Shown in pieces: positions 5 to 27,824 of a DNA stretch of 64,000 nt. Below the pieces are notes generated by a model. It did no database searches. It had not been told where the DNA came from and saw nothing but the letters and a program-made list of their open reading frames with translations. Every line of letters starts with the position of its first letter. Position 1 is the first letter of the stretch. A program made the position numbers and the translations under genes. Origin of the DNA: Hoeflea marina (GTDB lineage Bacteria > Pseudomonadota > Alphaproteobacteria > Rhizobiales > Rhizobiaceae); contig NZ_QGTR01000004.1 of the NCBI RefSeq assembly GCF_003182275.1, positions 115,811-179,810 of the forward strand, read 5' to 3'.

Positions 5-1171
5 TCATGCCGCCGCGCCGGCGGCCTTGAGAATGGCTCGGACTTCGGCGGCGCCGATATCGGCGTTCTCCCCGAGCGGCAGTTGTCCGGCCTCCTCAAG
101 GTGCTGCACGACCTTATCCGGGCTGACGGCCAGTCCCGGCACATCGCGAACCGCGACCGGGCAGTTCATCCGGCGGAAGAAGTCCTCCGTCCGGGCGATC
201 GCCAGGTCGGCGGCAGCCCGGTCGTCGGCTTCGGCCACGCCCCAGACGCGTCGGCCGTAGCGCGCCAGCATGGCGACCTTGTTCGGCATCCGGTTGCGCA
301 TCAGATGCGGCATGACCAGCGACAGCGACCTCGCATGGTCGAGGCCGTGCAGGGCGGTCAGCGCATGGCCGATCATGTGCGTCGACCAGTCCTGCGGCAC
401 CCCGGCTCCGATCAGGCCGTTGAGCGCCTGGTTGGCCGCCCACATGACGTTCTCCCGCGCCTCGTCGCTGTCCTCCACCAACAGGCGCGGGCCCCATTCG
501 AACAGCACCGCCAGCAGTGCCTCCGAGTAACCGTGCTGCACCGGCGCGTTGACCGGCAGCGTCAGATACTGCTCGAGCACATGGGTGACGGCGTCGACGA
601 CGCCGTTCTCCAGTTGCCGGCGCGGCAGCGACTTCATCGTCGACGGATCGAGGATGGCAAAGCGCGGCCGCGCAGCTTCCCGCTTGAACGGCAGCTTCAA
701 CCCGCGCGCGGTCCGCGAGATCACCGAGACCGGGTTGCTCTCCGAACCGGTGGCCGGCAGCGTCAGGATGGCGCCGCTCGGCAGCGGCTCCGGCAGGTCT
801 CTCCCGCCCAGCATCCGGTCCCAGGCGTCACCCCCACCGATCGGCGCGGCGCAGGAGAGGAACTTGGCCGCATCGATCACCGAGCCGCCGCCGACGCCGA
901 GGATGAAGGTCACCTTCTCCTCGCGCGCCAGAACGGCCGCCCGCATCACGGTCTCGTATTCCGGATTGGGCTCAATGCCGCCGAATTCGGTGACGACATG
1001 ACCGGCAAGCGCCTGCCTGATCCGATCATGAACGCCGTTGCGCATGATGCTGCCGCCGCCATAGAGCAGCAGAACCCGCTCTTCCGGCCCGATCTGCGAG
1101 GCGAGCTCGTCGATCATCCCCTCCCCGAACAGGATCCGCGTCGGGGTCTCCAGTGTGAAGGTCATCGTCAT
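5..1171 (-). CDS. Iron-containing alcohol dehydrogenase, YqhD/BDH-like (copy A)
   Basis: 388 aa. A cytosolic NAD(P)H-dependent group III dehydrogenase that would interconvert an alcohol and an aldehyde or ketone. The dinucleotide-binding GGGSVIDAAK motif lies near residue 95. The metal region has HVLEQY followed by the HMIGHALTALHGLDH stretch, giving the histidines expected of the Fe/Zn site and resembling YqhD/BDH more than glycerol dehydrogenase. The ATG at 1171 is preceded by GGAAG eight bases upstream. It is the last gene visible in the leftward liv/BKACE operon, 38 bases after the BKACE stop. The gene with its ribosome binding site is repeated exactly at 10387-11565. Family is certain; substrate unknown. 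Confidence 0.93.
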   Translation of the reverse strand: MTMTFTLETPTRILFGEGMIDELASQIGPEERVLLLYGGGSIMRNGVHDRIRQALAGHVVTEFGGIEPNPEYETVMRAAVLAREEKVTFILGVGGGSVIDAAKFLSCAAPIGGGDAWDRMLGGRDLPEPLPSGAILTLPATGSESNPVSVISRTARGLKLPFKREAARPRFAILDPSTMKSLPRRQLENGVVDAVTHVLEQYLTLPVNAPVQHGYSEALLAVLFEWGPRLLVEDSDEARENVMWAANQALNGLIGAGVPQDWSTHMIGHALTALHGLDHARSLSLVMPHLMRNRMPNKVAMLARYGRRVWGVAEADDRAAADLAIARTEDFFRRMNCPVAVRDVPGLAVSPDKVVQHLEEAGQLPLGENADIGAAEVRAILKAAGAAA

Positions 1172-1183
1172 GGTGTGTCTTCC
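5..1183. repeat. Exact 1179-bp direct repeat, copy A
   Basis: Bases 5-1183 match 10387-11565 without a visible difference (offset 10,382). The repeat begins at the first base of the TGA stop (read on the minus strand) and ends just beyond the GGAAG ribosome binding site. The flanks differ at once on both sides, although only four bases of left flank lie in the window. Encoded proteins and all alternative-frame translations agree, so synonymous sites are identical too. Confidence 0.93.
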
Positions 1184-1209
1184 AGCATCAATCGCTCCGC
1201 TGCTCCACT

Positions 1210-2118
1210 CTACAGTCCGAGGATGGACCGGGCCTCTGTCGGGGTGGCGATATCGATGTTGAGCGCGGACAGGATGCCGGTGATCTTCTCAACCTGGTGG
1301 GCGTTTGACCTGAACGGAACACCGGGCCTTTCGAACAGGTTGTCTTCTTGGCCGATGCGAATATGCGTGCCCATCATCGCCCCATACGTGGCTGCCTTGA
1401 TGTTTCCGGTGCCGGTGCCATGCGTGAAGAGTTCAACAGCATCGCCGAAGAGCCTTTCTGACGTCCGCTTGAGATGCACCAGATGATCGATATCGGACGG
1501 AATACCTCCAAGGATTCCGGTGAGAAACTGCAGGATGATCGGACGCTTGACGTTTGGCTTGCGGCGGAGATGGTGGTCGAGAATGTACAGGTGGCCGACA
1601 TCGTAGCATTCGAACTCCATGCCGATTTCATGCTCCAGCAGAATGTCCATCATCCGGTCGATCGTGGCGAAGCTGTTCTGCGTGACAATCTGATAGCTCT
1701 TTTCGCCGAACGCCTCCTGCTCCCAGGTCTGGGCGAACTCGTTGACGCCCTGGTTCCTCGCCTTGTTGAACAGACCATAGTTCATCGAGCCGACGATCAC
1801 CGTGGCGACATCGGGCTTGAGTGCCAGCACAGCTTCGAGCCGTTCTTCCGCCGTCTTGCCCAACGATGCCGACATGTTGATGATGGCATCGGTCTCGCGG
1901 CGGATCGGGGTGATGAACTCCTCCCAGATCGCCGTCTCATTTGTCGGACGACCGTCTGGAAGGCGGGCATGGGCATGGATGATGGCCGCGCCGGCCGCCA
2001 CGGCCTCGATAGACTGATCCGCGATCTCCTTCGGAGAAACGGGAAGATGGGGCGACATGGACGGCGTGAGCGATGCTCCGGTTACGGCGCAGGTGACGAT
2101 GGTCTTCTTGGACGACAT
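1210..2118 (-). CDS. Beta-keto acid cleavage enzyme (BKACE/DUF849 family)
   Basis: 302 aa, normal length for 3-keto-5-aminohexanoate cleavage-type enzymes, which condense a beta-keto acid with acetyl-CoA and split it into acetoacetate and a CoA thioester. The zinc-binding HAHAR motif is at residues 48-52 and the C-terminal THIRIGQEDN segment matches the family's conserved acid-bearing end. The start at 2118 has AAAGGAG seven bases upstream. It sits between the MBL-fold gene and the iron alcohol dehydrogenase in a leftward operon driven by a branched-chain-type transporter. The family is clear; which of the many BKACE substrates it uses is not readable. Confidence 0.92.
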   Translation of the reverse strand: MSSKKTIVTCAVTGASLTPSMSPHLPVSPKEIADQSIEAVAAGAAIIHAHARLPDGRPTNETAIWEEFITPIRRETDAIINMSASLGKTAEERLEAVLALKPDVATVIVGSMNYGLFNKARNQGVNEFAQTWEQEAFGEKSYQIVTQNSFATIDRMMDILLEHEIGMEFECYDVGHLYILDHHLRRKPNVKRPIILQFLTGILGGIPSDIDHLVHLKRTSERLFGDAVELFTHGTGTGNIKAATYGAMMGTHIRIGQEDNLFERPGVPFRSNAHQVEKITGILSALNIDIATPTEARSILGL

Positions 2119-2153
2119 GGAAATGCTCCTTTCGAGCAGCTTCTGCAGTTGAT

Positions 2154-3047
2154 TCAGTTGAATTGCGGTAGATCCGGCTCGCTCGGCTGGAAGGCGAAGC
2201 CGTTATCGGTGCGATTGACATATCCGCAATGCGGTGGACCAAAATGGCATGGCAGGATGAGAGTCCCGGTGTCGGCGACCCGCTCCAGGAATGCCAGGCG
2301 TGTCTCGCGGGCTGTTTCGGGGAGGACACAGAATGCGGTATTGAGGTCCGGGTTGGTGATCTGGAGCGGATGATGGAAAAGGTCCGCACAAAAGACGGCC
2401 TGTTCGTCCTTGCGACGCAGCCAGTAGTTCATCTGGCCCGGTGTATGACCGGCGGCAGATTCGGCGGTCAGGCAGCCGGCCACCACGTCACCCGGCTCCA
2501 CGAACCGGGCAAGACCGGCGGCGACAACCGGAAGAACGCTGTCGCCGAATGACGGATCGGCGGCGGGATTCGTTTCATGCAAGGCCTTGAAGTAGTCGAA
2601 GTCCCGGCGCGGGATGAAATATTGGGCATTGGGAAAGGCGGGAACCCAGCCTTCGCTGCCCGGGACCGTGTTCCAACCCACATGATCGCCGTGCAGATGG
2701 GTCATGACGACATGTGTCACCTGCTCGAACGAGGCATCGGCCGCCGCCAGCCACTGCGGCACAAGACTGTTGAGCATGTTCATTCGAGCAGCTGCACGCG
2801 GCTTGAAATTACCTACGCCGGTATCGACCAGAATGACCTTGTCATCGACGTGGACAATCCAGATCTGGATAGCCACCACCAAGCGTTGAAGGTTTTCATA
2901 CCAGTGGGCATTGCTCAACCAAGACCGATTGAGGTCGATGACGGAAGGGTCAAAGTCGGGATACAAGGCGACAGGGTCATGGGTTGGCGCGAAATACTCA
3001 ACCAGATTGGTCAGGCGGACGTCACCGATGGTGCGCGTGTAGATCAA
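2154..3047 (-). CDS. Metallo-beta-lactamase-fold hydrolase
   Basis: About 297 aa with a TTG start at 3047 preceded by CGGAG seven bases upstream; an ATG at 3098 would overlap the upstream GST gene by 32 bases and has a poorly spaced GAGG. The metal-binding THLHGDHVG (HxHxDH) motif is in the middle of the protein, with further metal histidines in the AGHTPGQ and CHFGPPH segments. This is the pattern of soluble MBL-fold hydrolases such as lactonases and glyoxalase II relatives. The operon suggests hydrolysis of a lactone, ester or thioester intermediate. Substrate unknown. Confidence 0.85.
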   Translation of the reverse strand: MIYTRTIGDVRLTNLVEYFAPTHDPVALYPDFDPSVIDLNRSWLSNAHWYENLQRLVVAIQIWIVHVDDKVILVDTGVGNFKPRAAARMNMLNSLVPQWLAAADASFEQVTHVVMTHLHGDHVGWNTVPGSEGWVPAFPNAQYFIPRRDFDYFKALHETNPAADPSFGDSVLPVVAAGLARFVEPGDVVAGCLTAESAAGHTPGQMNYWLRRKDEQAVFCADLFHHPLQITNPDLNTAFCVLPETARETRLAFLERVADTGTLILPCHFGPPHCGYVNRTDNGFAFQPSEPDLPQFN

Positions 3048-3066
3048 CAGTTTGCTCCGATCACGG

Positions 3067-3708
3067 TTAGCGGATTTTCCCGGCCAGTGCGGGGGCATTG
3101 TCCTCGAGCCGATTGTCACGGAGCGAGGGGCGAAGGTTGATTTCGCGATGCCAAGCCGACAGCCCCGGCCGGGTGGTGGACCATGCGAGATCCGCAAACC
3201 GGAACTCGATGTAGTTCAGCGCCACCGCCAAGCCCAGGGTCCCCAGGGTGACCCCCTCTTCGCGCAGGACCTCGGCTTCGGTGTCCAGATGATCGAGAAC
3301 GGCGGCGATCTTGATCTCCGAGGATTTGACGACATCACCCCATTGCATCGACTGCGGTTTGGCCAGTTCCACCAGGCGGAGGATCAGGAGATCGATCAGC
3401 CCGGTGGCGAGGGCCTGCCGCTGCAGCACGGATATCCGTGCCGGAAAATCAGCAGGCAGAAGATCGGTACGTCCACTCTTCCAGACCAGGAATTCGCAGA
3501 TGACGCGCGAATCGAAGATGCACCGTCCGCTGTCGTCGATCAGGGTCGGCAGTTTGTTCAGTGGATTGAACGCCATGACTTCCGGGGTGTGGGCGGCGAG
3601 GTGAACGGTGTGCAGTTCCAGAACGATGTCAGTTGCCAGGGCGGTCTCCGATGCCACCACCAGCACCTGTCGGACATAGGGAGAGCGAAGCGATCCAAGC
3701 AATTTCAT
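3067..3708 (-). CDS. Glutathione S-transferase family protein
   Basis: 213 aa. The N-terminal thioredoxin-like half has SPYVRQV at residues 9-15 in place of a classical catalytic Ser/Tyr context, and NPLNKLPTL near residue 50 supplies the cis-proline that binds glutathione. The helical C-terminal half follows from about residue 85. Its ATG overlaps the hydrolase stop as ATGA, so the two are translationally coupled. In this operon it may act as a glutathione-dependent isomerase or detoxification step; that is inference. Confidence 0.9.
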   Translation of the reverse strand: MKLLGSLRSPYVRQVLVVASETALATDIVLELHTVHLAAHTPEVMAFNPLNKLPTLIDDSGRCIFDSRVICEFLVWKSGRTDLLPADFPARISVLQRQALATGLIDLLILRLVELAKPQSMQWGDVVKSSEIKIAAVLDHLDTEAEVLREEGVTLGTLGLAVALNYIEFRFADLAWSTTRPGLSAWHREINLRPSLRDNRLEDNAPALAGKIR

Positions 3709-4520
3709 GCCGGCACCCGTTCGTTGGCCCGTTCCATGCGATCGAGAAACGCACCGATGTGCCGCGTGATGATCTCCGGCGCCTGATCGGGCACATGATG
3801 CGCCGCATCGACCTCGATTACCAAGTGCGCCCCAATCGTCTCGACCACCCGGCGGACATAGGAGGGGGGACGCAACGGATCATGAACGCCAGCCAGGCCG
3901 AGCACCGGAACCTTGATGGCTGAAAGCTCCGGAAACAGGTTCGTGGATGCCAGCATGCGGAACAACGCAGCCATGCTGGCCGGATCATTTGCAAGCCAAC
4001 GTGCACGGAATTCAGCGAAATGCGCCGGGTCGCGCAGACGGAACTGTTCGGGGTATCCCCCATCGAGCGATCCGGCTTCCACAGCCCGCAGCCCCTTTGC
4101 GCACAGCGTGGTTCCGCGAGCGATGAGGCCGTCACGGGCATCGGGTTCGGCGTCGATTGCCGGGTTGATCAGGATCAAGGCAGCGGTGCGTTCGGCGTAG
4201 TCCAAAGCAAAGCGAAGCGCTATGCCGCCGCCGACGGCGCAGCCGGCCAGCGACACCGGACCGGCGAGATCGAGCGCGTCGAGCAGCGCGGCGATATCGG
4301 CCGCCATCTGCCCCAGGCTCACCTCACCGACGATCTTCTCCGACATTCCCGCTCCGCGGGTATCAAAGCGGAGCACGCGTCGTGTTTTCGCCAGTTCCGG
4401 CGCCACCCGATCCCACGATTCAAGTGTCCCGCCCATCTCATGGATGAGCACCAGAACCGGCCCTCGGTCCCCAAGAAGTTGATAGCGCAGCGCCACGCCG
4501 TTGGCGTCAATCCAGTTCAT
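3705..4520 (-). CDS. Alpha/beta hydrolase-fold protein with alanine at the nucleophile position
   Basis: 271 aa, similar in layout to 3-oxoadipate enol-lactonase and related hydrolases. The oxyanion strand HEMGG is at residues 27-31, the nucleophile elbow reads LAGCAVGG at 91-98, the acid is Asp214 (GVHDPL) and the histidine is His241 or His242 (AAHHVPD). In the usual G-x-Ser-x-G elbow the nucleophile would be residue 95, which is Ala here (codon GCC); Cys94 is adjacent. It is encoded between livF and the GST gene. It may be non-hydrolytic, use a different mechanism, or belong to an Ala-elbow subfamily. Confidence 0.88.
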   Translation of the reverse strand: MNWIDANGVALRYQLLGDRGPVLVLIHEMGGTLESWDRVAPELAKTRRVLRFDTRGAGMSEKIVGEVSLGQMAADIAALLDALDLAGPVSLAGCAVGGGIALRFALDYAERTAALILINPAIDAEPDARDGLIARGTTLCAKGLRAVEAGSLDGGYPEQFRLRDPAHFAEFRARWLANDPASMAALFRMLASTNLFPELSAIKVPVLGLAGVHDPLRPPSYVRRVVETIGAHLVIEVDAAHHVPDQAPEIITRHIGAFLDRMERANERVPA

Positions 4521-4547
4521 AAGAGCACCCCATGCCGAGCCGATATT

Positions 4548-5246
4548 TCAAAAGTAGTTCCAAAGATTGATCTGTTCGGCCTCGGCCTTGCTGCCGTTGA
4601 AGACAAGTTTTCCGCTGTTGATGATCATGACATGATCGGCAATCTTCATCGCCGAGGCGATCTTGTGCTCCACCAGGATTGCGGAGATCGACAGCTTCTT
4701 GCAGATGTCGGACATCTTTCCGAACAACTCCTCGACGAGATCCGGCTGCAAGCCCACCGACGGTTCCTCCAGGAGCACGCACTTGGGCGAACCAAGCAGT
4801 GCCAGCCCGAATGCAAGCATCTGCTGCTGGCCACCGCTCATTTCCCCGGCGATGGTCTTTCGGCGGTCTCTGAGAACGGGCAGCAGATCGTAGACGTCGT
4901 CCGCCGATATCTTCGCGCCGTTGGGGTCCCTGTTGCTCTGCGAGACGATCTCGATGCTGTCCTGCACGTTGAGGTCGGGAAAGACGCCTTTCCCCTCGGG
5001 CAACAGCCGCAAGCCACGTTTGAGACGGGCACTGACCGTCAGATGTTCAATTCGCTCACCGTCCAGGAGGATTTGCCCCTCCTTCGCGGGCAACAATCCG
5101 AGAACGGCTTTCAATGTGGTGGACTTGCCGGCACCGTTGTGACCGAAGAATGCGAGGATCTCCCCGTCGGCTAGGTTGAAGGACACCTTTTCCAGTATCG
5201 ACTTGTCGCCATAGCCGGCGACCAGATTGCGTGCTTCCAGGGTCAT
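4548..5246 (-). CDS. livF: Branched-chain-type ABC transporter ATPase, LivF
   Basis: 232 aa, the usual LivF size. Walker A is GHNGAGKST, the signature is MSGGQQQ, and the Walker B region reads VLLEEPSVGL, so the usual magnesium-binding Asp is Glu while the catalytic Glu is kept. Start at 5246 lies one base after the livG stop. It would power uptake together with LivG, LivM, LivH and LivK. The Asp-to-Glu change is conservative and probably tolerated. Confidence 0.95.
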   Translation of the reverse strand: MTLEARNLVAGYGDKSILEKVSFNLADGEILAFFGHNGAGKSTTLKAVLGLLPAKEGQILLDGERIEHLTVSARLKRGLRLLPEGKGVFPDLNVQDSIEIVSQSNRDPNGAKISADDVYDLLPVLRDRRKTIAGEMSGGQQQMLAFGLALLGSPKCVLLEEPSVGLQPDLVEELFGKMSDICKKLSISAILVEHKIASAMKIADHVMIINSGKLVFNGSKAEAEQINLWNYF

Positions 5247-5247
5247 G

Positions 5248-6009
5248 TCAGGCTCCTGATCCGAAGTAGATCTTGCCGAGGTCCTCGTTGGCGATGATCT
5301 CGTCCGGCTTTCCCTTGGCCAGCAGCGTCCCGCGATGGAAGAACAGCACCTCGTCAGCGATCCGCTTGACGATCTTGGTGTTGTGCTCGACGATCAACAG
5401 CGTCTTCTGCTGATTTTTCAGGGCGTGAATGAGCTCGACCATGTTGTCGAGCGCGGCGGCCGCCAGGCCGGATGTCGGCTCGTCGAGCAGAAGCAATTCG
5501 GCGCCGGTTGCCAGAACCCGTGCAATGCACAGCAACTTCTTCTGGCCGTAACTGATGTTGGCAGCCTGATCGCCCGCCTTGTGGGCTAGACCCACCTGTT
5601 CCAGCAGCATCATGGCCGCCTCGCGCTTCCGGCGCAAAACAGCTTGCGTGTGAAACGGTCGGAAGACCGCGGAGAGCGGATCGTTCGCACCGTTGTCGCC
5701 GAGGCAGACGATGACATTGTCGAGCAGTGTCATGGTCTCAAACAGCCGCAGATTCTGAAATGTCCGGGCGATCCCGGCTTCAACCCGGTCATGTCGGCTT
5801 TCGGCGGTGATGTCCCGCCCCTTGAATTCTATCCGGCCGGTGTCGGCCGGAATGAAGCCGGTGATCACGTTGAAAATGGAAGTCTTTCCCGCGCCGTTCG
5901 GCCCGACGACGCAGGTTGTTTCCATCGGCCTGATGGAGAAGCTGCAATCGGTCAACGCGCGGATACCACCGAAACTCTTGTTGACGTTGGAGACGTTGAG
6001 ATAGGTCAT
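5248..6009 (-). CDS. livG: Branched-chain-type ABC transporter ATPase, LivG
   Basis: 253 aa. Walker A GPNGAGKTS, signature SYGQKKLL and Walker B LLLLDEPTSGL are all intact. The ATG at 6009 was chosen because it starts one base after the livM stop and has GGAAAGAG upstream; a longer reading would run into livM. It is the second nucleotide-binding subunit of the HAAT-type importer. Confidence 0.95.
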   Translation of the reverse strand: MTYLNVSNVNKSFGGIRALTDCSFSIRPMETTCVVGPNGAGKTSIFNVITGFIPADTGRIEFKGRDITAESRHDRVEAGIARTFQNLRLFETMTLLDNVIVCLGDNGANDPLSAVFRPFHTQAVLRRKREAAMMLLEQVGLAHKAGDQAANISYGQKKLLCIARVLATGAELLLLDEPTSGLAAAALDNMVELIHALKNQQKTLLIVEHNTKIVKRIADEVLFFHRGTLLAKGKPDEIIANEDLGKIYFGSGA

Positions 6010-6010
6010 G

Positions 6011-6871
6011 TTACAGGCTCTTTCCGGCAATGCCTTGCGGACGCCACAGCATGAAGGCAATCAGCAGCAGGCCGTAGATCAGCTGGCGGATCGGCCCCAC
6101 GAGTGTCGATGGAATGTCGATAAGGGTGAGCGCCTGCGGAATGGCCAGCAGCAGAAAGGGTCCGATGATTGAGCCGGCAAGGGTCCGGGCTCCGCCGACG
6201 ACCACCATCGTGACCACCAGAACCGAGACATGGATGTCGAAGGATACCGGATCGATAAAGCTGATATAGGCCGCGTACAGAGCGCCGCCGATGCCGGCAT
6301 AGGCGCCGGACACGGCCGATACGCCGATCTTGGTCTGCAGGACCTTCCGGCCGGATGCGACCACCGCGATTTCGTCCAGTCGGATCGCGTTCAGCATCAT
6401 CCCATAGGGCGAGCGGAGGATCAGCCAGAAACTCAAGGCGACAAGGCAGAGCGCCAATGTGGACAAGACGGCGAACTGGCTGGCAGTCACAAAGGAATAG
6501 CCAAACATGGTGGCGACAGGGATGCCGCTAAGGCCCGACGCTCCGCCGGTGAGTGACGACCAGTTTATGAAGACGGCCGTTGCGACAAGCTGCGTGCCAA
6601 ATGAGGTGATGATGAAGTAGTCGCCAGCGAGCCTGAGCGAAGGAAGCGAGGAGATGAGATTGACGCCGGCACACACGGCGATGGCGGCCAGCACGGCCAG
6701 GGGAAAGGGCACACCCATCATCACGAGAATGCCGGACGTATAGGCGCCAATTCCCATGATTGCCGCCTGGGCGACGGAAAAGATGCCGACGACACCCATC
6801 AGCAGATTGGTGGAGAAGGCGACGATGGAGAATATTTCCGCGAGCACCAGAAAGCTAAAGAAGTAATTCAT
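6011..6871 (-). CDS. livM: Branched-chain-type ABC transporter permease, LivM
   Basis: 286 aa, almost wholly hydrophobic with about eight membrane segments. It carries the LivM-type stretches LRSPYGMMLNAIRLDEIAV and the VVVGGARTLAGSIIGP coupling-helix region near the C-terminus. It lies 14 bases downstream of livH. It forms the inner-membrane channel with LivH. Confidence 0.94.
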   Translation of the reverse strand: MNYFFSFLVLAEIFSIVAFSTNLLMGVVGIFSVAQAAIMGIGAYTSGILVMMGVPFPLAVLAAIAVCAGVNLISSLPSLRLAGDYFIITSFGTQLVATAVFINWSSLTGGASGLSGIPVATMFGYSFVTASQFAVLSTLALCLVALSFWLILRSPYGMMLNAIRLDEIAVVASGRKVLQTKIGVSAVSGAYAGIGGALYAAYISFIDPVSFDIHVSVLVVTMVVVGGARTLAGSIIGPFLLLAIPQALTLIDIPSTLVGPIRQLIYGLLLIAFMLWRPQGIAGKSL

Positions 6872-6885
6872 GACCCAATCTCCCC

Positions 6886-7761
6886 TCAGATCGCGCGACT
6901 GAATTTGCGACGCACCAGGCCTTCGGGTCTGATGAGGATGAACAGCACGAAGATGGCGAACACCACGGCAATGCTCCAGCGCCCGGACACAAACGCCACC
7001 GAAAGGCTCTGGATGACCGCGAGAACGATCGACATCACGAAGGCGCCGCCCAGGCTGCCGATCCCGCCGGCGATCATGGCAATGACCGCGGTCAGAAGGA
7101 TGATGAGCGAGGTGTATGGCTGCAGCGCTTGATCGACTCCGACAAGAACGCCCGGAACGGCCACCAGCCCTGATGAGATCGCGATGACGTAGACGAACAC
7201 GCGCTGCGGGTTGAGGTGGGTGATTTCCGCCAGTCCCGGGTTGGAGGCCACCGCGCGAATGCGTTTGCCCAGCTTGGAATATTTCGAGAAGAGCACCACC
7301 GCCGCAAAAAGCCCGACGCTGGACAGGAGAATCAGGATCTGCGGAACGCTGAACCAGACTCCGCCAATGGTAAGGCTGTTCAATCGCCAGGGCAGATCAA
7401 ACTGCACGATGTTCGGTGTGAAGAAGATGGCAACAATGTTCTGCAGTGTCGTCAGGACACCTATGGACGCGATCAGCTTGACCAGGGGCGACGCGCCCTT
7501 GTTTTCCAGCGTCTGATAGAGAGTGACCTGGACGAACATTCCCACCAGCGCTCCACAGAGGATGCTCGCAATCAATGCCAGAATGAAAGGGATACCCAGT
7601 CCGGTCAGATACCAGGCGATATAACCGCACAGCGTATAGATGCCGGCATGGGCGACATGAAAGATGCCGGTTGTCGCGTAGAAATAAGCGAAGCTGACCG
7701 CCACCAGCCCGATGGCGCATCCCGTAACCACGCCATCGGCTATCAGTTGTACATACAGCAT
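6886..7761 (-). CDS. livH: Branched-chain-type ABC transporter permease, LivH
   Basis: 291 aa with about eight membrane helices. The LivH family signature is visible in the IRAVASNPGLAEI loop and in AVIAMIAGGIGSLGGAFV. It starts 25 bases after the livK stop, and no strong hairpin separates the two. It is the second channel subunit of the importer. Confidence 0.94.
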   Translation of the reverse strand: MLYVQLIADGVVTGCAIGLVAVSFAYFYATTGIFHVAHAGIYTLCGYIAWYLTGLGIPFILALIASILCGALVGMFVQVTLYQTLENKGASPLVKLIASIGVLTTLQNIVAIFFTPNIVQFDLPWRLNSLTIGGVWFSVPQILILLSSVGLFAAVVLFSKYSKLGKRIRAVASNPGLAEITHLNPQRVFVYVIAISSGLVAVPGVLVGVDQALQPYTSLIILLTAVIAMIAGGIGSLGGAFVMSIVLAVIQSLSVAFVSGRWSIAVVFAIFVLFILIRPEGLVRRKFSRAI

Positions 7762-7786
7762 TTGATCAGAGCCTTGAGATTTCAGT

Positions 7787-8911
7787 TCACTGAGCGGAGG
7801 AAGCTGTCGAGGTCGTTATGACCTTTCGTTCCTTGCCCTTGTATTGCTGAATTTCCACCGGCCGCGAGGCCGTGTTGGTATCGAAACGGATGTCAGCGAT
7901 GGGCGAATTGAAATCCTTGATCTTGAAAATGGCATCGCGAAGGGTGGTTCCGGTCAACGACGCGCCATCCTTGGTGACCAGTCTTGCCGCCTCGATGATG
8001 ATGTTGGTGGCGTTGAAATACTCACGGGCAAAAAAACCCATGTCCTCCGCATCGAACTGGGTCTTGAACGCCTCGAGGGTCGCATCGTCGGGGTAACCCG
8101 ACTGGATGGCTGTCTGGTACCAGCCTTCGGTGGATGCATAGCCGAAGAAGGGCCGAGAGAAGGTGTTCCCGATCGCCACGGGAAAGCCCGGCACCTGACC
8201 GACCTGATCGGCCATGGTCTCATGGCTTTGGGTAATGGCGATATAGACGAAATCCGGCTTGACGCTTGCGACCTTGAGCAGCGACGAGCGATAGTTTGTC
8301 TGGCCGAATTCCACCGGCTCTTCCGCCAGGATCTTGCCGCCAGCGGCCTCGAAGTATTTCTTGAAGTCGTCCCGGCCATCGATGCCGGCGGCGGCATTCT
8401 CATAAACGATGGCTGCGTTCTTCCCGATGTTGGCTGTCGCGTACTTGGCCAGCACCTGCGCCTCGTCCTTCACCAGCGGAATGGTGTTGAGCAGGTAAGG
8501 GGACGCATTCTCGAGCTTGTCTGTCTGCGCAGCTGGGTTGACGACCAGCAATTCACGGCGTGTGGCCAACGGCGCGATCGCCAGAGAAATCGAAGAGAAA
8601 GCGGTGATCATGGCGGGCACGTCCTGAAGGTCGGCCATCCGATTGAAGGCCAGAACAGCCTGGTCTGGCTTGCCCTGACTGTCGTCGAACACGATGCGCA
8701 CGGGCACGCCGTTGAGCCCGCCCTTGGCGTTGACCTGGTCAATGGCGAATTGCACTCCCTGTTGTTCCTCAATGCCGATCGGGGCCGCGGGCCCCGTCAG
8801 CGGCAACAGCGCGCCGAGGACAAGTTCACCGTCCGCGGCCATGGCCCAACCGCTCGCGGCCACCATCATCGTGCCCGCGAAAAGCGCACGCAGAGTTCCT
8901 GTCAGTGTCAT
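7787..8911 (-). CDS. Periplasmic branched-chain-type substrate-binding protein, LivK-like
   Basis: 374 aa from the ATG at 8911, which has a strong GGGAGGAG ribosome binding site; a TTG six codons upstream overlaps that site and is rejected. A Sec signal peptide ends near AMA|ADG at about residues 25-27. The mature protein has the Peripla_BP_6 hallmarks LGALLPLTGPAAPIG and DDSQGKPDQA. It is the first gene of the leftward operon and the likely target of the divergent LacI-type repressor. The ligand is unknown; enzymes downstream suggest an organic or keto acid rather than an amino acid. Confidence 0.93.
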   Translation of the reverse strand: MTLTGTLRALFAGTMMVAASGWAMAADGELVLGALLPLTGPAAPIGIEEQQGVQFAIDQVNAKGGLNGVPVRIVFDDSQGKPDQAVLAFNRMADLQDVPAMITAFSSISLAIAPLATRRELLVVNPAAQTDKLENASPYLLNTIPLVKDEAQVLAKYATANIGKNAAIVYENAAAGIDGRDDFKKYFEAAGGKILAEEPVEFGQTNYRSSLLKVASVKPDFVYIAITQSHETMADQVGQVPGFPVAIGNTFSRPFFGYASTEGWYQTAIQSGYPDDATLEAFKTQFDAEDMGFFAREYFNATNIIIEAARLVTKDGASLTGTTLRDAIFKIKDFNSPIADIRFDTNTASRPVEIQQYKGKERKVITTSTASSAQ

Positions 8912-8945
8912 CGATTTCTCCTCCCTCAAGGTGGCTCAACGAATT

Positions 8946-8957
8946 TGAACCGGTTCA
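8946..8957. promoter_or_regulatory. LacI-family operator O1, perfect palindrome
   Basis: TGAACCGGTTCA, a perfect 12-bp palindrome with the central CG typical of LacI-family operators, set in an AT-rich frame. It lies 35 bases upstream of the livK-like start, just downstream of the predicted transcription start, where a repressor would block transcription. A near-identical site is at 9251-9262. Confidence 0.75.
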
Positions 8958-8967
8958 TTTCTGGGCA

Positions 8968-8996
8968 ACAATGCGCATCAGGCAAACTGCTGTCAA
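8968..8996 (-). promoter_or_regulatory. Predicted leftward promoter for the liv operon
   Basis: Read on the minus strand, a perfect TTGACA -35 box (8996-8991) is followed after 17 bases by CATTGT (8973-8968) as a weak -10 box. The expected start of transcription near 8961 falls immediately upstream of operator O1. The -10 match is poor (three of six), so this is a candidate. Confidence 0.45.
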
Positions 8997-9250
8997 TGAT
9001 TTTTTTAAGCCAATATTGCCGAGATGCCCTCTGCCACCAGCCAGAAAGAGCGCGAAAATTAACCTCCACGGGAACAGCAGTATCAGCACGATCTGGATAC
9101 AATCAGATAAAAAACGGCCAAAATCAATGTTATCCAGCTGACTTCCGGAGCAGATGCATCGAATTCCACCCTAAACCAAGTCAAGACATCTCCAGGTCGG
9201 CGGCGGTCAGGAAACTGGCGGAAATGCGCCAGCCCGCTTGAATTATTTTT

Positions 9251-9262
9251 TGAACCGCTTCA
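9251..9262. promoter_or_regulatory. LacI-family operator O2, one mismatch from palindrome
   Basis: TGAACCGCTTCA, differing from O1 at one base, flanked by T and A runs. It lies 42 bases upstream of the regulator's GTG start and would allow autoregulation, or looping with O1 about 305 bases away. Confidence 0.65.
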
Positions 9263-9303
9263 TAAAAACGAACTGAAAGCAGGCTCAAAGAACGGGAAAA
9301 TGC

Positions 9304-10356
9304 GTGGCAAAGAAAGAACTCCCAGGCGTCGTGCGCAATCCCCGACACCTGCGCAAGGCAACAATCAATGACGTCGCCGCCCTGGCGGGAGTATCGGTGG
9401 GGACCGTGTCCAATGTCATCAACGGCCGCGGCAATGTGAGTGAACCTCGGCGCAAGAAGGTCCGCGAAGCGATCGCGACCCTTTCCTTCACTGGCAGCCT
9501 CCTTGCAAAGGGCATGCGTGCTCAGCGCTATCCGGTCGTCGGCCTTTGCGTTCCGAACAGCACGTCCTCCAACTTCGTCACGATGACCGACATCCTCGAA
9601 GAACACGCCACAGGTGCAAATTTCGAGCTTGTCCAGATCATCACCCGCCACGACCAGCAGCGGGAACATGATCGGATCGAGCGGTTGATCGCCTCGCGGG
9701 CGAGCGGTGTCTTGCTGCTGCCAACGCTTCTGGCGGAGCCGGTGCTGGAACTCCTTCACAGCTCCCAAATGCCGACGGTCATCATCAATCGCTTCGTGGC
9801 GGATGAGGAACGCTTTGATCAGGTTCTGGTGGATCACAGGAGCGCGTTTGTGGCCGCCACCCGGCAATTGCTCGAATGGGGCCACACCAGGATCATCGTG
9901 GCGACCCAATTTCCCAATTTCTCGGTAGTGCGGCAGAATATTGCCGGCATAAACGAGGCCATTGCGGACAGCGGCGCTGACGTCTCCTCTACCATCATGA
10001 AATGCGGTACAAACCAGGAAGAATTCAACCGCATGCTCGCCGTAGAACTGAGAGATGCAAGCCGCAAGACGGTCCTCATTGCCAGTTCGAGCCTGTTGTC
10101 GGCTTGGAGCATCGAGGCTTTCCGCGACCTCGGCCTCCGTTGCCCTGAGGACATCTCGCTGCTCGCTGCCGAAGAGCCCCACTGGGCGATGGCTGCGTGG
10201 CCCAGTCTCTCCTGCATCCAGCAGCCGACACGCGAACTGGGACGAATTGCCTGGGATTTGCTCAGCCGCCGCATGGCGGGCGGAAACGATGCCGCCGTGA
10301 CCATTCGGTGCGATGCGCGCGTCAATTTTCGGGGATCCGTGTCCCGTTCCACATGA
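9304..10356 (+). CDS. LacI-family transcriptional regulator
   Basis: 350 aa from a GTG start. The DNA-binding helix-turn-helix with hinge helix is at residues 19-45 (INDVAALAGVSVGTVSNVING), followed by a periplasmic-binding-protein-like sensor domain from about residue 75 to the end. It is divergent from the liv operon, and the shared region has two matching palindromes, so it is very probably the local repressor with a small-molecule inducer taken up or made by this pathway. It ends 30 bases before the second iron alcohol dehydrogenase, which is convergent to it. Confidence 0.93.
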   Translation: MAKKELPGVVRNPRHLRKATINDVAALAGVSVGTVSNVINGRGNVSEPRRKKVREAIATLSFTGSLLAKGMRAQRYPVVGLCVPNSTSSNFVTMTDILEEHATGANFELVQIITRHDQQREHDRIERLIASRASGVLLLPTLLAEPVLELLHSSQMPTVIINRFVADEERFDQVLVDHRSAFVAATRQLLEWGHTRIIVATQFPNFSVVRQNIAGINEAIADSGADVSSTIMKCGTNQEEFNRMLAVELRDASRKTVLIASSSLLSAWSIEAFRDLGLRCPEDISLLAAEEPHWAMAAWPSLSCIQQPTRELGRIAWDLLSRRMAGGNDAAVTIRCDARVNFRGSVSRST

Positions 10357-10386
10357 TTTGCAGTTTTCCCAAGCCGTTGCACCGAT

Positions 10387-11553
10387 TCATGCCGCCGCGC
10401 CGGCGGCCTTGAGAATGGCTCGGACTTCGGCGGCGCCGATATCGGCGTTCTCCCCGAGCGGCAGTTGTCCGGCCTCCTCAAGGTGCTGCACGACCTTATC
10501 CGGGCTGACGGCCAGTCCCGGCACATCGCGAACCGCGACCGGGCAGTTCATCCGGCGGAAGAAGTCCTCCGTCCGGGCGATCGCCAGGTCGGCGGCAGCC
10601 CGGTCGTCGGCTTCGGCCACGCCCCAGACGCGTCGGCCGTAGCGCGCCAGCATGGCGACCTTGTTCGGCATCCGGTTGCGCATCAGATGCGGCATGACCA
10701 GCGACAGCGACCTCGCATGGTCGAGGCCGTGCAGGGCGGTCAGCGCATGGCCGATCATGTGCGTCGACCAGTCCTGCGGCACCCCGGCTCCGATCAGGCC
10801 GTTGAGCGCCTGGTTGGCCGCCCACATGACGTTCTCCCGCGCCTCGTCGCTGTCCTCCACCAACAGGCGCGGGCCCCATTCGAACAGCACCGCCAGCAGT
10901 GCCTCCGAGTAACCGTGCTGCACCGGCGCGTTGACCGGCAGCGTCAGATACTGCTCGAGCACATGGGTGACGGCGTCGACGACGCCGTTCTCCAGTTGCC
11001 GGCGCGGCAGCGACTTCATCGTCGACGGATCGAGGATGGCAAAGCGCGGCCGCGCAGCTTCCCGCTTGAACGGCAGCTTCAACCCGCGCGCGGTCCGCGA
11101 GATCACCGAGACCGGGTTGCTCTCCGAACCGGTGGCCGGCAGCGTCAGGATGGCGCCGCTCGGCAGCGGCTCCGGCAGGTCTCTCCCGCCCAGCATCCGG
11201 TCCCAGGCGTCACCCCCACCGATCGGCGCGGCGCAGGAGAGGAACTTGGCCGCATCGATCACCGAGCCGCCGCCGACGCCGAGGATGAAGGTCACCTTCT
11301 CCTCGCGCGCCAGAACGGCCGCCCGCATCACGGTCTCGTATTCCGGATTGGGCTCAATGCCGCCGAATTCGGTGACGACATGACCGGCAAGCGCCTGCCT
11401 GATCCGATCATGAACGCCGTTGCGCATGATGCTGCCGCCGCCATAGAGCAGCAGAACCCGCTCTTCCGGCCCGATCTGCGAGGCGAGCTCGTCGATCATC
11501 CCCTCCCCGAACAGGATCCGCGTCGGGGTCTCCAGTGTGAAGGTCATCGTCAT
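10387..11553 (-). CDS. Iron-containing alcohol dehydrogenase, YqhD/BDH-like (copy B)
   Basis: 388 aa, identical to the protein at 5-1171. The ATG at 11553 keeps the same GGAAG ribosome binding site as copy A; an in-frame ATG at 11583 would add ten residues (MTQTSEGRHT) but lies outside the repeated unit and is less likely. It is the last gene of the leftward thiolase/TRAP/CoA-transferase operon, after the aldo/keto reductase. The presence of the same enzyme at the end of two different operons suggests each pathway makes an aldehyde or alcohol that needs it. Confidence 0.92.
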   Translation of the reverse strand: MTMTFTLETPTRILFGEGMIDELASQIGPEERVLLLYGGGSIMRNGVHDRIRQALAGHVVTEFGGIEPNPEYETVMRAAVLAREEKVTFILGVGGGSVIDAAKFLSCAAPIGGGDAWDRMLGGRDLPEPLPSGAILTLPATGSESNPVSVISRTARGLKLPFKREAARPRFAILDPSTMKSLPRRQLENGVVDAVTHVLEQYLTLPVNAPVQHGYSEALLAVLFEWGPRLLVEDSDEARENVMWAANQALNGLIGAGVPQDWSTHMIGHALTALHGLDHARSLSLVMPHLMRNRMPNKVAMLARYGRRVWGVAEADDRAAADLAIARTEDFFRRMNCPVAVRDVPGLAVSPDKVVQHLEEAGQLPLGENADIGAAEVRAILKAAGAAA

Positions 11554-11565
11554 GGTGTGTCTTCC
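10387..11565. repeat. Exact 1179-bp direct repeat, copy B
   Basis: Second copy of bases 5-1183, in the same orientation. The unit is exactly the coding sequence plus its ribosome binding site. Recombination between the copies would remove or amplify the 10,382-bp segment carrying the liv transporter, its enzymes and the LacI-type regulator. No insertion sequence or target-site duplication is seen at the edges. Confidence 0.93.
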
Positions 11566-11613: not shown

Positions 11614-12597
11614 TCAGCAGTAACGCTCCGGCCCGCTTGCCTGGCGGTCCGAATAGCGGTCGCCATGGGCAAAGCCCACCGGCAGCAATTCCTCGATGGT
11701 GGCAATGTCGGATGCGGTGAGCACCATGTCGGCAGCCGCCACATCCTCCTCGAGATGCTCGGCAGTCCGGGTCCCCGGGATGGGGATCGCGGCGCCGGTT
11801 CGATGCAACACCCAGGCGATCGCCAGCGCTGCCGGCGATCGGCCGGTGTCGCGCGCGAAAGCGTTGAATGCCTGGATGCGCTTGAGATTGAGGCTGTAGT
11901 TGGGCTCGATGAACCGCGGGCTGGCCTTGCGGAAATCGGTGTCGGCGAAATCCCTCGGATCGGGAATTCTGCCAGTCAGCATGCCGCGCGCCACCGGCGA
12001 GAAGGCGACGAAGGCCGTGCCATAGGTCTCGCAGGCCCGGATCAGACCCAGATCGGGCAGCCGCGTCCACAGCGAGTACTCGCTCTGCACCGCCGCAACC
12101 GGGTGGATCGCCTGCGCGCGCTCGAGCGTGCCGGGCGAGACTTCCGACAGGCCGATGGCGCCGATCTTGCCTTCCTGCTTGAGGCGGGCAAGCGTTTCCA
12201 TCACCTCTTCGATGGGGCGGTCGGCTTCGCGGCGGTGTATGTAGAACAACTCGACATGTTCCCGTCCAAGCCGTCGCAGAGAGTCCTCGAGGCTGGAGCG
12301 GATATGGGCCTCGGAATTGTCATAGCGCCTGACCGGCTGGTTGATGATCCCCGCCTTGGTCGCGATGACGAATTCATGTCCCGACCGGGCGATGTAGGCG
12401 CCAATCGTCTGCTCGGACACGCCATTGCCATAGATATTGGCCGTGTCCAGATGGGTGACGCCCAGGTCGTGGGCGCGCGCCAATGTCCGAAAGCATTCCG
12501 CCTCCGTGGTGGGACCGTAGGGGCCGCCAAAGCTCATGCATCCAAGCCCGATGGCGCCCACCATCGGGCCATCCGTTCCCAACTGCCGCTGTTTCAC
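11614..12597 (-). CDS. Aldo/keto reductase
   Basis: About 327 aa with a GTG start at 12597, which has GGAGAG upstream and gives the usual VKQRQLG N-terminus; an ATG at 12609 adds four residues. The catalytic tetrad is visible as Asp in LDTANIYG, Tyr in the same segment, Lys in ATKAG and His in YIHRREAD. The NADPH-binding IPIPGTRTAEHLEE segment is near the C-terminus. It resembles the AKR13/YajO-type cytosolic reductases. It lies 60 bases upstream of copy B of the alcohol dehydrogenase. Confidence 0.92.
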   Translation of the reverse strand: MKQRQLGTDGPMVGAIGLGCMSFGGPYGPTTEAECFRTLARAHDLGVTHLDTANIYGNGVSEQTIGAYIARSGHEFVIATKAGIINQPVRRYDNSEAHIRSSLEDSLRRLGREHVELFYIHRREADRPIEEVMETLARLKQEGKIGAIGLSEVSPGTLERAQAIHPVAAVQSEYSLWTRLPDLGLIRACETYGTAFVAFSPVARGMLTGRIPDPRDFADTDFRKASPRFIEPNYSLNLKRIQAFNAFARDTGRSPAALAIAWVLHRTGAAIPIPGTRTAEHLEEDVAAADMVLTASDIATIEELLPVGFAHGDRYSDRQASGPERYC

Positions 12598-12677
12598 TGC
12601 ACTCTCCATTCATTCGGTTGCATCGACTCGGTCGATCCGGATCCGGTCCATGGGACTGCTCCGGGCTCGGCCGCCGC

Positions 12678-13886
12678 TCAGCGGGTGGGCGCTGTTGCCA
12701 AAATCCCGTGGGCGACGAGGTCGTTGTACGTGGCTTCGTCCCGTTTGAGGAGATCAATCACGATGCGGCGATTGTCCTGACCCAGCGTCGGCGCCAAACT
12801 GCGCACCTGCAGCGGTCGTCCGTCGGTCGACCAGGGCAGGCCCTTGACCGGTGTGCCGTCAGGGCCGAGCACGACGGCAAGGCGATCCTGTGCCGGGTGG
12901 TGGGCATCCACCATGTCGGCAGCCGTCAAGGCGATTTCGGCCGCGCAACCCGCGGCGCGCAGCCCGGCGACCGCAATCGCGGCAGGCTGGCTGGCAATCC
13001 AGAGTTCCAGCGCGGCGAGCCCGCTGCCGCCCGTCAGGGCGTCGACCCTGGCCGGATCGGTCTTGCGGACCAGGGTTGCCGCGACCCATCGTCCGTCGGC
13101 ACTGGGGTAGATGCCCTGCCCGCCATGGAGCGCACCGCATTCGCAGGCGCCGCCGGCCGAATCGTTGACGCCGTAGGCGGCCGCAACGAGCTTCTCCCCG
13201 ATGAGGAACGCCGTCACCTCGCGTTGCGCGATGTCGACATGAAGGGCGCGTCCGCTGCGGCGAGCCTCGAGCACCGTCGCCATGATCATGCCTGCTGCAA
13301 ACAGCGACACCACCTGGTCCGGATAGTTCAGGGCCTGTCCGCTGATCATCGGCGCTTCGCCCGGATAACGCACCAGATCCGCGAAGCCACTGGAGGCCTC
13401 AAGCGTCGATCCGAAGGAAACCGCCGTCGCGTTCGGTCCGGTCGTCCCCTGGCTTGAAACCGAGCCGAGCACGATCCGGCTGTTGGCGCCGCGCAGCACA
13501 TCGAATCCGAGGCCCAGCCGGTCGAGCACTCCGGCGCGGAAATTCTCGATCACCACATCGCTGATGCGAACCAGGTCAAGCAGCAGTTCCCTGCCCGATT
13601 CGGATTTGAGGTCGACGCAGACATCCTGCTTGTTGCGGTTGGTGAACCGGAAATGCGGTGAGCCTTCCCACCACCCGGCCTCGGTGGATTCGCCCGCCCA
13701 ATGGCGAAAGGGGTCGATATACCCCGGTCCTTCCACCTTGATGACCTCGGCGCCCAGATCCGCAAGCATCGCCGATGTGCTGGCCCCAGCGGTGATGATG
13801 CCGAAATCGACGACCCGCAGGCCCTCAAGCGGTAGGTCGCCGCGGCTCTCGTTCGCCGGCGGCGCGCGGTTGACTGCACTGCCCAT
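12678..13886 (-). CDS. CaiB/BaiF family III CoA-transferase, large subunit type
   Basis: 402 aa. The family N-terminus LPLEGLRVVDFG is at about residues 18-29 and the LADLGAEVIKVEGP segment follows at about 42. The catalytic aspartate region reads VDIAQREV, placing Glu where Asp is common, a variant seen in many members. Its ATG overlaps the preceding gene's stop as TGATG. Two adjacent CaiB genes suggest a heteromeric enzyme that loads CoA onto the acid imported by the TRAP system. Confidence 0.92.
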   Translation of the reverse strand: MGSAVNRAPPANESRGDLPLEGLRVVDFGIITAGASTSAMLADLGAEVIKVEGPGYIDPFRHWAGESTEAGWWEGSPHFRFTNRNKQDVCVDLKSESGRELLLDLVRISDVVIENFRAGVLDRLGLGFDVLRGANSRIVLGSVSSQGTTGPNATAVSFGSTLEASSGFADLVRYPGEAPMISGQALNYPDQVVSLFAAGMIMATVLEARRSGRALHVDIAQREVTAFLIGEKLVAAAYGVNDSAGGACECGALHGGQGIYPSADGRWVAATLVRKTDPARVDALTGGSGLAALELWIASQPAAIAVAGLRAAGCAAEIALTAADMVDAHHPAQDRLAVVLGPDGTPVKGLPWSTDGRPLQVRSLAPTLGQDNRRIVIDLLKRDEATYNDLVAHGILATAPTR

Positions 13887-14872
13887 CAGTTCGTCCCTGC
13901 CCAGGTCGCCGGAAGCCGCGTCAGGCCGAAATCCGGACTGGATCGGGCCAGGTCGAGGAAATCGCGCGCCAGCATCTGCGGATCGGTCAGCAGGTCGGCG
14001 ACGCTGAGCACGGGACCGATCGGAATGGACAGCTCTCGCGCCGCCGCAACGATGTCAGCCCGGCTCTGCGTCCCGGCCCAGACGGAAAAGATCCCGTTGA
14101 AGACCTCGATATTCTCGCGCCGGCGGCCGACGGTGGCGAATGCGGCATCGTTGAGCCGGCCGTCGCCGGTCATCTTCGCCAGCTTGGCAACGTCCTTGTC
14201 CTGGAACACCAGCGCGATGTAGCCGTCGCGGCACCGCATCGTGGTCCAGTCCTCGGCGCGGCCGATCCCGGCGTGCGGATTGCCCATGTGGCAGGCGAGA
14301 TAGTGCTTCCAGTTGAGCCAGGTGGCGACATCGACGACCGAAACACAGCTCCGGCCGGCCGGGCGGAGGCCCGTGGACAGCAGCGATGCCATCAGCGCAT
14401 TGAATGCGGCGATGCCGGCTGAATAGCCGGCCTGATGGCCCGGCAGCGGCAACGGCGGGCGGCCCTCGCTGCCGTAAACGTCAAGCAGGCCGCTGGCTGC
14501 CAGAATGGTCAGTTCGCTGTGGGGCCGGTCATCGAGCATCGAGGAGCGGATGAGCACTGCCGCCGGACCTGGCCAGTTCCCGGCCAGCGCGCGGTCATTG
14601 GTCACCAGCAGCGCCCGGCGATCATCGACTCGGGCCGACCGGAGCTTACCCCGGTTGAGGAAGGTGGCGACGCTGCTTCGGCCGCCGGGCAGGATCGGCG
14701 CCCATGCGTCAAGCGGATCTGGCCCGTCGGGAAGAATCTGGCAGACCTCGGCGCCGAGATCGGCGGCAAGGCGGCCCGCAAAGGCGATCGAGATGCGCGT
14801 GACGTCGTCACAATCCGGGCACGGGTACTCTGCGATCCTCGTGCCTGAAAGCGGCCTCGGCGTCATCATCAT
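13886..14872 (-). CDS. CaiB/BaiF family CoA-transferase, divergent partner
   Basis: 328 aa, shorter than a typical 380-400 aa family member. The LAADLGAEVCQILPDGPDPLD and PLPGHQAGYSAGIAAFNALMA segments identify the fold, but the N-terminal PLSGTRIAEY is atypical and the catalytic region (VSVVDVATWLNW) is poorly conserved. It may be a non-catalytic partner of the neighbouring large subunit. The ATG at 14872 has AGGA eight bases upstream and is 27 bases after the TAXI protein stop. Confidence 0.85.
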   Translation of the reverse strand: MMMTPRPLSGTRIAEYPCPDCDDVTRISIAFAGRLAADLGAEVCQILPDGPDPLDAWAPILPGGRSSVATFLNRGKLRSARVDDRRALLVTNDRALAGNWPGPAAVLIRSSMLDDRPHSELTILAASGLLDVYGSEGRPPLPLPGHQAGYSAGIAAFNALMASLLSTGLRPAGRSCVSVVDVATWLNWKHYLACHMGNPHAGIGRAEDWTTMRCRDGYIALVFQDKDVAKLAKMTGDGRLNDAAFATVGRRRENIEVFNGIFSVWAGTQSRADIVAAARELSIPIGPVLSVADLLTDPQMLARDFLDLARSSPDFGLTRLPATWAGTN

Positions 14873-14899: not shown

Positions 14900-15859
14900 T
14901 TACTTGATCAGGCCTTTTTCACGCAGGTAGCGTTCGGTGCCGGGGTGCAGTGGCGGATCGACGTCGAGGGTCGCATTCTCGATCGTGATCTGCTTGAACG
15001 CCGGGTTGGTCGGGCGCTTGCCTTCCCAATAGGCCTTGGTCGCGGTGTAGACCTGCTCCTCGTCGGCATCGGCACTGACGAACAGCACCTCCGGATAGGC
15101 GAACGTCATCACCTCCTCGGTCTGGCCGGGATAGGTGTTGGCCGCGATCGTCGTCCGCAGCATGGTGCCGTGATAGGCCTCGTTGATGCGGTCGAAGACC
15201 TCATCGGGGATCGGCAGCACATTGACCGCCGCCGAGGCCGCCAGTTGCTGGATCGAGCCGGACGGCAGCGGCTGACCGTTGCAGGTCGCGTCGACGACCG
15301 AGTTGCCGACCGCGTCATAGCTGCCGCTGGTGGCGATTTCCATGATCTGGAAGTCGTCCACCGACATCTGGAAGGCGGCGATCAGGTTGCGGTTGATCGC
15401 CTGGGTCGCCGTCGCCGGCACGTTGATGTTGAGCTTCTTGCCCTTGAGGTCGGCAAAACTCTTGATGCCCGAATCGGCGCGGACGACGCACTGGAAGGTG
15501 GCTGTGGTGACGGGGAACATGCGCCGCAGCGGCGCGAATGCCTCCTTGGCACCGGGCAGTGCTTCGAACTTGCCTGTGCCGCGCCAGGCATCACCGAGTT
15601 CGGACAGCAGCGTCAGGCCCGCATTGACTTGGCCCTGGGCCACCAGGTTGAGGTTGTCGTTGTAGCCCCCCGAGGTCTGCGCCGACACGTCGAGCATATC
15701 CTGGCTGGCGTTCATTGTCTCGGCGATCGCCGAGCCGATGATGTAGGGTCCGGAACCCGTGCTCGAGGTGGCGATGGACCAGCGCTCTTCGGCATGGCCG
15801 ACGGCCGGCATGATGGCGGTTGCGGTGACAAGCGCCAGGGTAAGGCTGCGGATAATCAT
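14900..15859 (-). CDS. TAXI family TRAP transporter solute-binding protein
   Basis: 319 aa. A Sec signal peptide covers about residues 1-23 (cleavage near GHA|EER). The TAXI hallmark STGSGPYIIGSAIAE follows directly, with the KSFADLKGKKLNINVPATATQ stretch in the middle. The ATG at 15859 overlaps the permease stop as ATGA and has GGAGG upstream. It delivers an organic acid to the fused TRAP permease encoded just upstream. The ligand is unknown. Confidence 0.93.
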   Translation of the reverse strand: MIIRSLTLALVTATAIMPAVGHAEERWSIATSSTGSGPYIIGSAIAETMNASQDMLDVSAQTSGGYNDNLNLVAQGQVNAGLTLLSELGDAWRGTGKFEALPGAKEAFAPLRRMFPVTTATFQCVVRADSGIKSFADLKGKKLNINVPATATQAINRNLIAAFQMSVDDFQIMEIATSGSYDAVGNSVVDATCNGQPLPSGSIQQLAASAAVNVLPIPDEVFDRINEAYHGTMLRTTIAANTYPGQTEEVMTFAYPEVLFVSADADEEQVYTATKAYWEGKRPTNPAFKQITIENATLDVDPPLHPGTERYLREKGLIK

Positions 15860-18985: not shown

Positions 18986-18988
18986 GGT

Positions 18989-20298: not shown

Positions 20299-20315
20299 GA
20301 AACGAGGAGATTCCG

Positions 20316-25996: not shown

Positions 25997-25999
25997 CGG

Positions 26000-27795: not shown

Positions 27796-27824
27796 GGGGA
27801 TGACCAGGATTTCCGGTGGAGAGC

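Follow-up and report, generated by a model that had tools for sequence, protein, structure and literature searches.

Two identical iron-containing alcohol dehydrogenase genes in neighbouring catabolic operons of Hoeflea marina, at a break in the assembly

Two neighbouring catabolic operons of Hoeflea marina carry, in the assembled sequence, the same iron-containing alcohol dehydrogenase (ADH) gene, present as copy A in operon A and as copy B in operon B. The pair looks like an ordinary gene duplication, a known kind of event. It is confirmed as sequence, with a caveat on exactness: the absence of any difference between A and B is not certified, as it rests on an assembly that is broken at the repeat. 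Our preferred reading, to which we give a probability of about 0.6, is that the copies are real paralogues, that B arose from A by local duplication, and that both are identical because the event was recent and/or because they undergo gene conversion like that of tuf genes.

Two copies of one alcohol dehydrogenase gene

The window, i.e., the whole 64-kb stretch of DNA that was analysed, corresponds to C4:115811-179810 in the whole genome (G000, 5.26 Mb, 20 contigs). A direct comparison of copies A and B (Table 1) gave 0 mismatches in 1179 positions, as reported by the first-pass annotation, which was made from the letters of the window, and the match is not one of chance. The first mismatched bases outside the repeat are found at window position 4 (also 1 and 2) leftwards and 1184 rightwards. 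The edges lie where they had been placed before, at the stop codon and the ribosome-binding site: the left edge is the TGA stop of the minus-strand ADH ORF (complement of 5-1171, 388 aa), and the right edge lies 12 bp upstream of the ATG. The shared unit of both copies is the 12-bp leader GGAAGACACACC, which begins with the probable ribosome-binding site GGAAG, followed by the ATG and 388 codons through the TGA. With about 305 synonymous sites and zero changes, the divergence of A and B is below about 1%, provided that the assembled letters are correct.

The two copies have the same orientation and lie 10.4 kb apart; no other repeat family of 40 bp or more was reported in the window. That the DNA around them differs, as had also been claimed, was borne out by six comparisons of their flanks (60, 150 and 400 bp; 500 shuffles each), in which no similarity was detectable; the best was matched by 35 of 500 shuffles and the other five by 182-234 of 500. 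No remnant of the dhaK or BKACE flank was detectable beside copy B in these comparisons.

Table 1. Positions of the two repeat copies and of the genes around them in the window
Feature	Position	Strand	Basis or remark
Repeat copy A, 1179 bp	5..1183	-	95-N gap just outside the window, to the left on the + strand
ADH copy A, YqhD-like iron-containing alcohol dehydrogenase, 388 aa	5..1171	-	PF00465
Shared 12 bp upstream of start, GGAAG probable ribosome-binding site	1172..1183	-	Repeat comparison
Operon A beta-keto acid cleavage enzyme (BKACE)	1210..2118	-	PF05853, 8.1e-77
Operon A metallo-beta-lactamase-fold (MBL) hydrolase	2154..3197	-	PF00753
Operon A glutathione S-transferase-like (GST)	3067..3708	-	PF13417
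Operon A alpha/beta hydrolase	3705..4520	-	PF00561
Operon A branched-chain-type ABC transporter: two ATPases, two permeases, binding protein	4548..8929	-	
LacI-type regulator, convergent with ADH copy B	9304..10356	+	PF00356, PF13377
Repeat copy B, 1179 bp	10387..11565	-	Repeat comparison
ADH copy B from shared start, 388 aa; listed ORF starts upstream at 11583, 398 aa	10387..11553	-	
Operon B aldo/keto reductase (AKR)	11614..12609	-	PF00248, 3.7e-74
Operon B CoA-transferase family III (1)	12678..13886	-	PF02515
Operon B CoA-transferase family III (2)	13886..14872	-	PF02515
Operon B TAXI-type TRAP binding protein (about 14900-15865) and DctM-type TRAP permease (15856-17790)	14900..17790	-	
Operon B enoyl-CoA hydratase, OB-fold protein, thiolase	17787..20296	-	
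LysR-type regulator, divergent from operon B	20295..21224	+	PF00126, PF03466

The encoded protein is an iron-containing alcohol dehydrogenase (PF00465, E 3.5e-39, 134.5 bits at a gathering score of 31.3). It is similar over its full length to the NADPH-dependent aldehyde reductase YqhD (PDB 1oj7, 4qgs; 384.9 bits to 1oj7), and, with 429.3 bits at a cut-off of 645 in the YqhD equivalog model NF011717, it is not a member of that equivalog. Its residues D193, H197, H265 and H279, which we take to be the metal ligands, align with identical residues in the YqhD structure. The enzyme probably serves both pathways by reducing an aldehyde or oxidising an alcohol. A genome-wide search with the protein gave 860.6 bits for each of copies A and B and 60.2 for the next full paralogue, and there was no other strong match.

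The assembly at the repeat and the tuf pair as a control

Immediately to the left of window base 1 the contig has a gap of 95 N (C4:115716-115810), the edges of which overlap exactly: the last 100 bp before it match window bases 1-100 at every position (100/100), including 4 bases proper to copy A. As the same sequence stands on either side of the gap, the assembly must have broken at the ADH repeat. The extension of the left flank beyond base 1, which had been advised as a check, thus led into the gap, and behind it to the overlapping 100-bp edge and the dhaK flank of copy A. A 96-bp genome match at C4:115620-115715 that resembled a third copy was rejected, as it is the left edge of this gap. 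Copy B is contiguous with both its flanks, and all four flanks of the two copies run into ADH sequence without N. Since these four flanks are distinct, the two copies are probably real. The suspicion of an assembly problem was therefore justified as to a break at the repeat, whereas a collapse or a false copy is unproven.

The tuf pair of the same genome, found with TIGR00485, has the same shape. The two tuf genes are identical over 1181 bp (C1:286130-287310 and C1:305882-307062, 19.8 kb apart), from a leader of 4-5 bp to the stop codon of the ORF, and their flanks are unrelated. On its left edge the first tuf copy has a gap of 97 N; the sequences on both sides of this gap share an overlap of 98 bp with a single mismatch, at which the pre-gap edge has T and the post-gap sequence of copy 1 has C, the base of copy 2. 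This suggests that one consensus was used twice. Like the ADH pair, the tuf pair consists of copies of about 1.18 kb with ORF-limited identity, unrelated flanks and an N gap with overlapping contig ends at the repeat, a signature that shows a break, not a false copy. In the 2,079,810 of 5,255,740 bases read, no exact direct repeat of 150 bp or more occurs apart from tuf and ADH, as far as both partners of a pair lie inside these bases; the only two N runs are one each at tuf and ADH, and the longest inverted exact repeat, searched with 60-base seeds, has 79 bp.

The two pairs differ in kind. According to the available part of PMC6053082, tuf is widely known as duplicated in Proteobacteria, and is an essential and ancient pair in many orders, whereas the ADH is a catabolic gene whose duplicated state was seen only here. 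Unlike the ADH copies, tufA and tufB of Salmonella are 762 kb apart in inverse orientation. These Salmonella genes have 1185 nt and 12 differences between the copies (PMC5485169, in the text accessible).

Copy A and its counterpart in Rhizobium

The region of copy A is collinear with a locus of Rhizobium sp. Root482 (L031), in which lacI, the ABC transporter, hydrolase, GST, MBL hydrolase, BKACE, ADH and dhaK genes are found. The ADH protein is 75% identical to that of Root482 and 58-65% identical to those of the other fetched Rhizobiales loci, and the DNA of copy A matches the Root482 locus at 75% over 1297 bp, spanning the BKACE-ADH junction. At E<=1e-60, a single ADH was found in 6/7 genomes tested, Root482 included, and four diverged ones in Rhizobium sp. 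BK313; no ADH occurs in the 833 bp beyond lacI in the Root482 locus. As the Root482 operon is collinear and has one ADH, copy A appears to be the native gene.

A dhaK gene directly follows the ADH gene in 6 of the 80 fetched loci (L031, L032, L033, L041, L043 and L050), and the dhaK at the left flank of copy A is the flank expected from relatives. The GC content of ADH and dhaK (68.4 and 68.5%) exceeds that of the rest of operon A (57.5-64.0%), and with 61-68% GC in operon B the ADH is closer to operon B than to most of operon A. This hint at copy B as the source was rejected, because Root482 has the same step (65.8 and 67.9% in ADH and dhaK vs 60.0-64.6% in the rest of the operon) and because it is A that has the conserved context.

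Copy B and the relatives of operon B

Copy B is the last gene of operon B and converges on lacI. At 1e-120, the CoA-transferase of operon B was found in 1 of 394 genomes of the family, its own, none of the 393 others having a comparable gene; at 1e-60 it was found in 5 of 367 genomes of the order, its own included. Neither an ADH nor an AKR gene was detected at 1e-8 within the 20 kb read in the loci of the four relatives. Genes for a thiolase, an OB-fold protein and a second CoA-transferase lie close by in all four, and two of the four (L229 and L230) are collinear with operon B for five genes (thiolase-OB-ECH-CoAT2-CoAT1). With CoAT1 only 43-47% identical, these distant relatives show the operon core, not a recent empty site.

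The AKR gene is common (64/394 genomes of the family at 1e-90). In none of the 29 relatives' loci read was an ADH found near it, over a distance of up to 1.5 kb, and the remaining operon B queries and lacI had no match beside it either. ADH loci near CoA-transferases in Microvirga and at L048 were set aside, as their layout is unlike that of operon B.

Searches for further relatives and for mobile elements

The ADH DNA had a match of any kind at 1e-3 in 15 of 61 genomes, its own included, and the only long match outside its own genome was that in G018, about 700 bp at 67%. The protein was found at 1e-100 in 5 of 394 genomes of the family, again with its own. Plasmid records held no close ADH (best 63%), no long DNA match and no close CoA-transferase (best 35%), and no RNA families were found in the 64-kb window.

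Neither an inverted repeat pair nor a second direct repeat of at least 40 bp was reported in the window, and no transposase domain was found among the Pfam-scanned ORFs of window 1-31 kb; the copies thus have neither terminal inverted repeats nor a transposase in these searches. PF00872, the one transposase family searched genome-wide, had no match on C4. Outside the window, about 5-9 kb left of copy A, lie two Phage_integrase (tyrosine recombinase) genes (C4:107101-108243 and 110040-111098). The earlier remark that no transposase was visible therefore stands for the scanned ORFs, and has to be read together with these two genes. Both sit among porin genes.

Origin of the second copy

The same orientation of the copies, their spacing of 10.4 kb and a native copy A together suggest a local duplication. 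The source would be copy A within the operon lacI // ABC transporter - hydrolase - GST - MBL hydrolase - BKACE - ADH - dhaK, and the second copy would have been placed, as its final gene, at the end of the adjacent LysR-regulated thiolase/CoA-transferase/TRAP operon. The probable route would be a tandem duplication from the ADH stop to just past lacI, after which the co-duplicated genes between ADH and the following operon would have been lost. Identity may have been kept because the event was very recent, or by RecA-dependent gene conversion as for tuf. Direction, route and the way in which identity is kept are all three what we infer. A loss of co-duplicated genes that leaves the useful one is described, in the available part of PMC8763031, for segmental duplication with amplicon remodelling, but there for large amplicons in laboratory E. 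coli, whereas here it would be deduced from one end state with ORF-tight edges.

The first-pass annotation had proposed a very recent copying or gene conversion between two unrelated operons. Copying into the neighbouring operon is favoured by the context, which is conserved at A and absent at B. Recency and gene conversion are inseparable here; the tuf pair shows the same ORF-bounded identity. The copies are closer to each other than to orthologues (100% vs at most 75% of amino acids), as concerted evolution expects, but a recent duplication predicts the same. The limitation of identity to the ORF, another mark of concerted evolution, is seen in the ADH pair, whereas a duplication older than the species is not indicated by one ADH in most genomes tested, four diverged ones in BK313 and none at the operon B relatives.

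ORF-tight edges are not expected of blind breakpoints, and they fit homogenised older paralogues as well or better, as the tuf control shows. It is possible, if doubtful, that gene conversion from A replaced an older or independently acquired paralogue at B, or that it ran in the opposite direction, in a tuf-like manner. Several diverged ADH paralogues do occur in some genomes, such as the four of BK313, and in repair-proficient Salmonella the 1185-nt tuf genes convert one another at measured rates of 2e-8 to 1e-5 per cell per generation. However, none of the four relatives has a diverged ADH at the B site, and the same source, in the part accessible, has tuf conversion blocked by large sequence differences and aborted at gene ends (PMC5485169), so that agreement up to the final base takes at least two events, or luck.

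Local duplication has also to be weighed against explanations from the assembly and from mobile DNA. It is rather unlikely that two real copies with some base differences were given one consensus by the assembler: the gap at copy A with its overlapping edges and the tuf base shared with copy 2 would fit it, but the ADH edges agree in full, bases proper to copy A included, copy B is contiguous with both flanks, and the 96 bp of copy A on the left side of the gap, which were read separately, are identical too. A false duplication of a single ADH gene by the assembler, for which one could cite that the only gap in the stretch sits at the repeat, is very improbable, as four different N-free flanks are impossible from one copy in one clonal genome, tuf, a known duplicated pair, has the same signature, and the dhaK flank of copy A is as relatives predict. 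Carriage of copy B by a mobile element or a site-specific recombinase is extremely improbable; the two recombinase genes left of copy A would speak for it, but their place among porin genes and the results of the repeat and transposase searches speak against it.

Implications

An exact gene-sized repeat at the edge of the window was also the site of an assembly break, which calls for caution, and the tuf pair calibrates findings of this kind. In a replicon of Rhizobium etli, too, one gene, nifH, is present in identical copies, and recombination between these deletes the intervening DNA (PMC10932983, in the part available). There the gene is one of a symbiotic plasmid and the deletions are large, and no such deletion was seen at the ADH pair, between the direct copies of which recombination should delete the intervening 10.4 kb.

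In a quite improbable version, the gene and its ribosome-binding site alone would have moved to the end of the neighbouring operon, an ORF-exact copy that would be kept equal by gene conversion, so that two catabolic operons with LacI- and LysR-type regulators share one enzyme. If true, a lineage-specific catabolic gene would here be evolving in concert, beyond the mostly key and long-lasting cases published, as far as the available text of PMC6053082 goes. Provided that the identity is real, two catabolic operons of H. marina owe the same reductase to a recent or homogenised duplication, and both would have this aldehyde reductase/alcohol dehydrogenase at or near their end.

The tuf pair and open reading frames of the window

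The first copy of the tuf pair, the EF-Tu genes on contig C1 that served as a control for the alcohol dehydrogenase (ADH) pair, adjoins a 97-N assembly gap, the edges of which differ at one base. In Rhizobium sp. BK313, the match to the ADH locus was split in two pieces, and a stop inside this gene was reported by the search; the three further ADH loci of this strain were all diverged.

Among the TRAP transporter genes of operon B, the match to a TAXI binding protein was confined to the last third of a 983-aa ORF. As the DctM permease ORF overlaps it in a different frame, the first two thirds of the 983-aa ORF are probably non-coding. Elsewhere in the window, genes for an MlrC-type metallopeptidase, a dipeptide-type ABC transporter and an RpiR-type regulator form a single cluster.

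Coordinates of the features in H. marina and of the split in the BK313 match
Feature	Location	Position
97-N gap	C1	286033-286129
Split in BK313 ADH match		~10858-10867 (locus L053)
983-aa ORF	window	14900-17851
DctM permease ORF	window	15856-17790
Peptidase/transporter cluster	window	22558-30865
Tandem repeat	C3	607575-608048
Porin_2 (n=3) and Phage_integrase (n=2) genes	L004	4091-11098 (C4:104091-111098)
20-bp inverted pair	L004	5250-5269 / 5841-5860

Repeats outside the window

The tandem repeat has a period of ~250 bp, with 148 bp exact. In L004, the region of contig C4 left of the window, the Porin_2 genes form inverted pairs, 77-96% alike, with two Phage_integrase genes interleaved among them, and the 20-bp inverted pair, which is perfect, lies between the two that are divergent. 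This region is possibly a recombining porin cassette.
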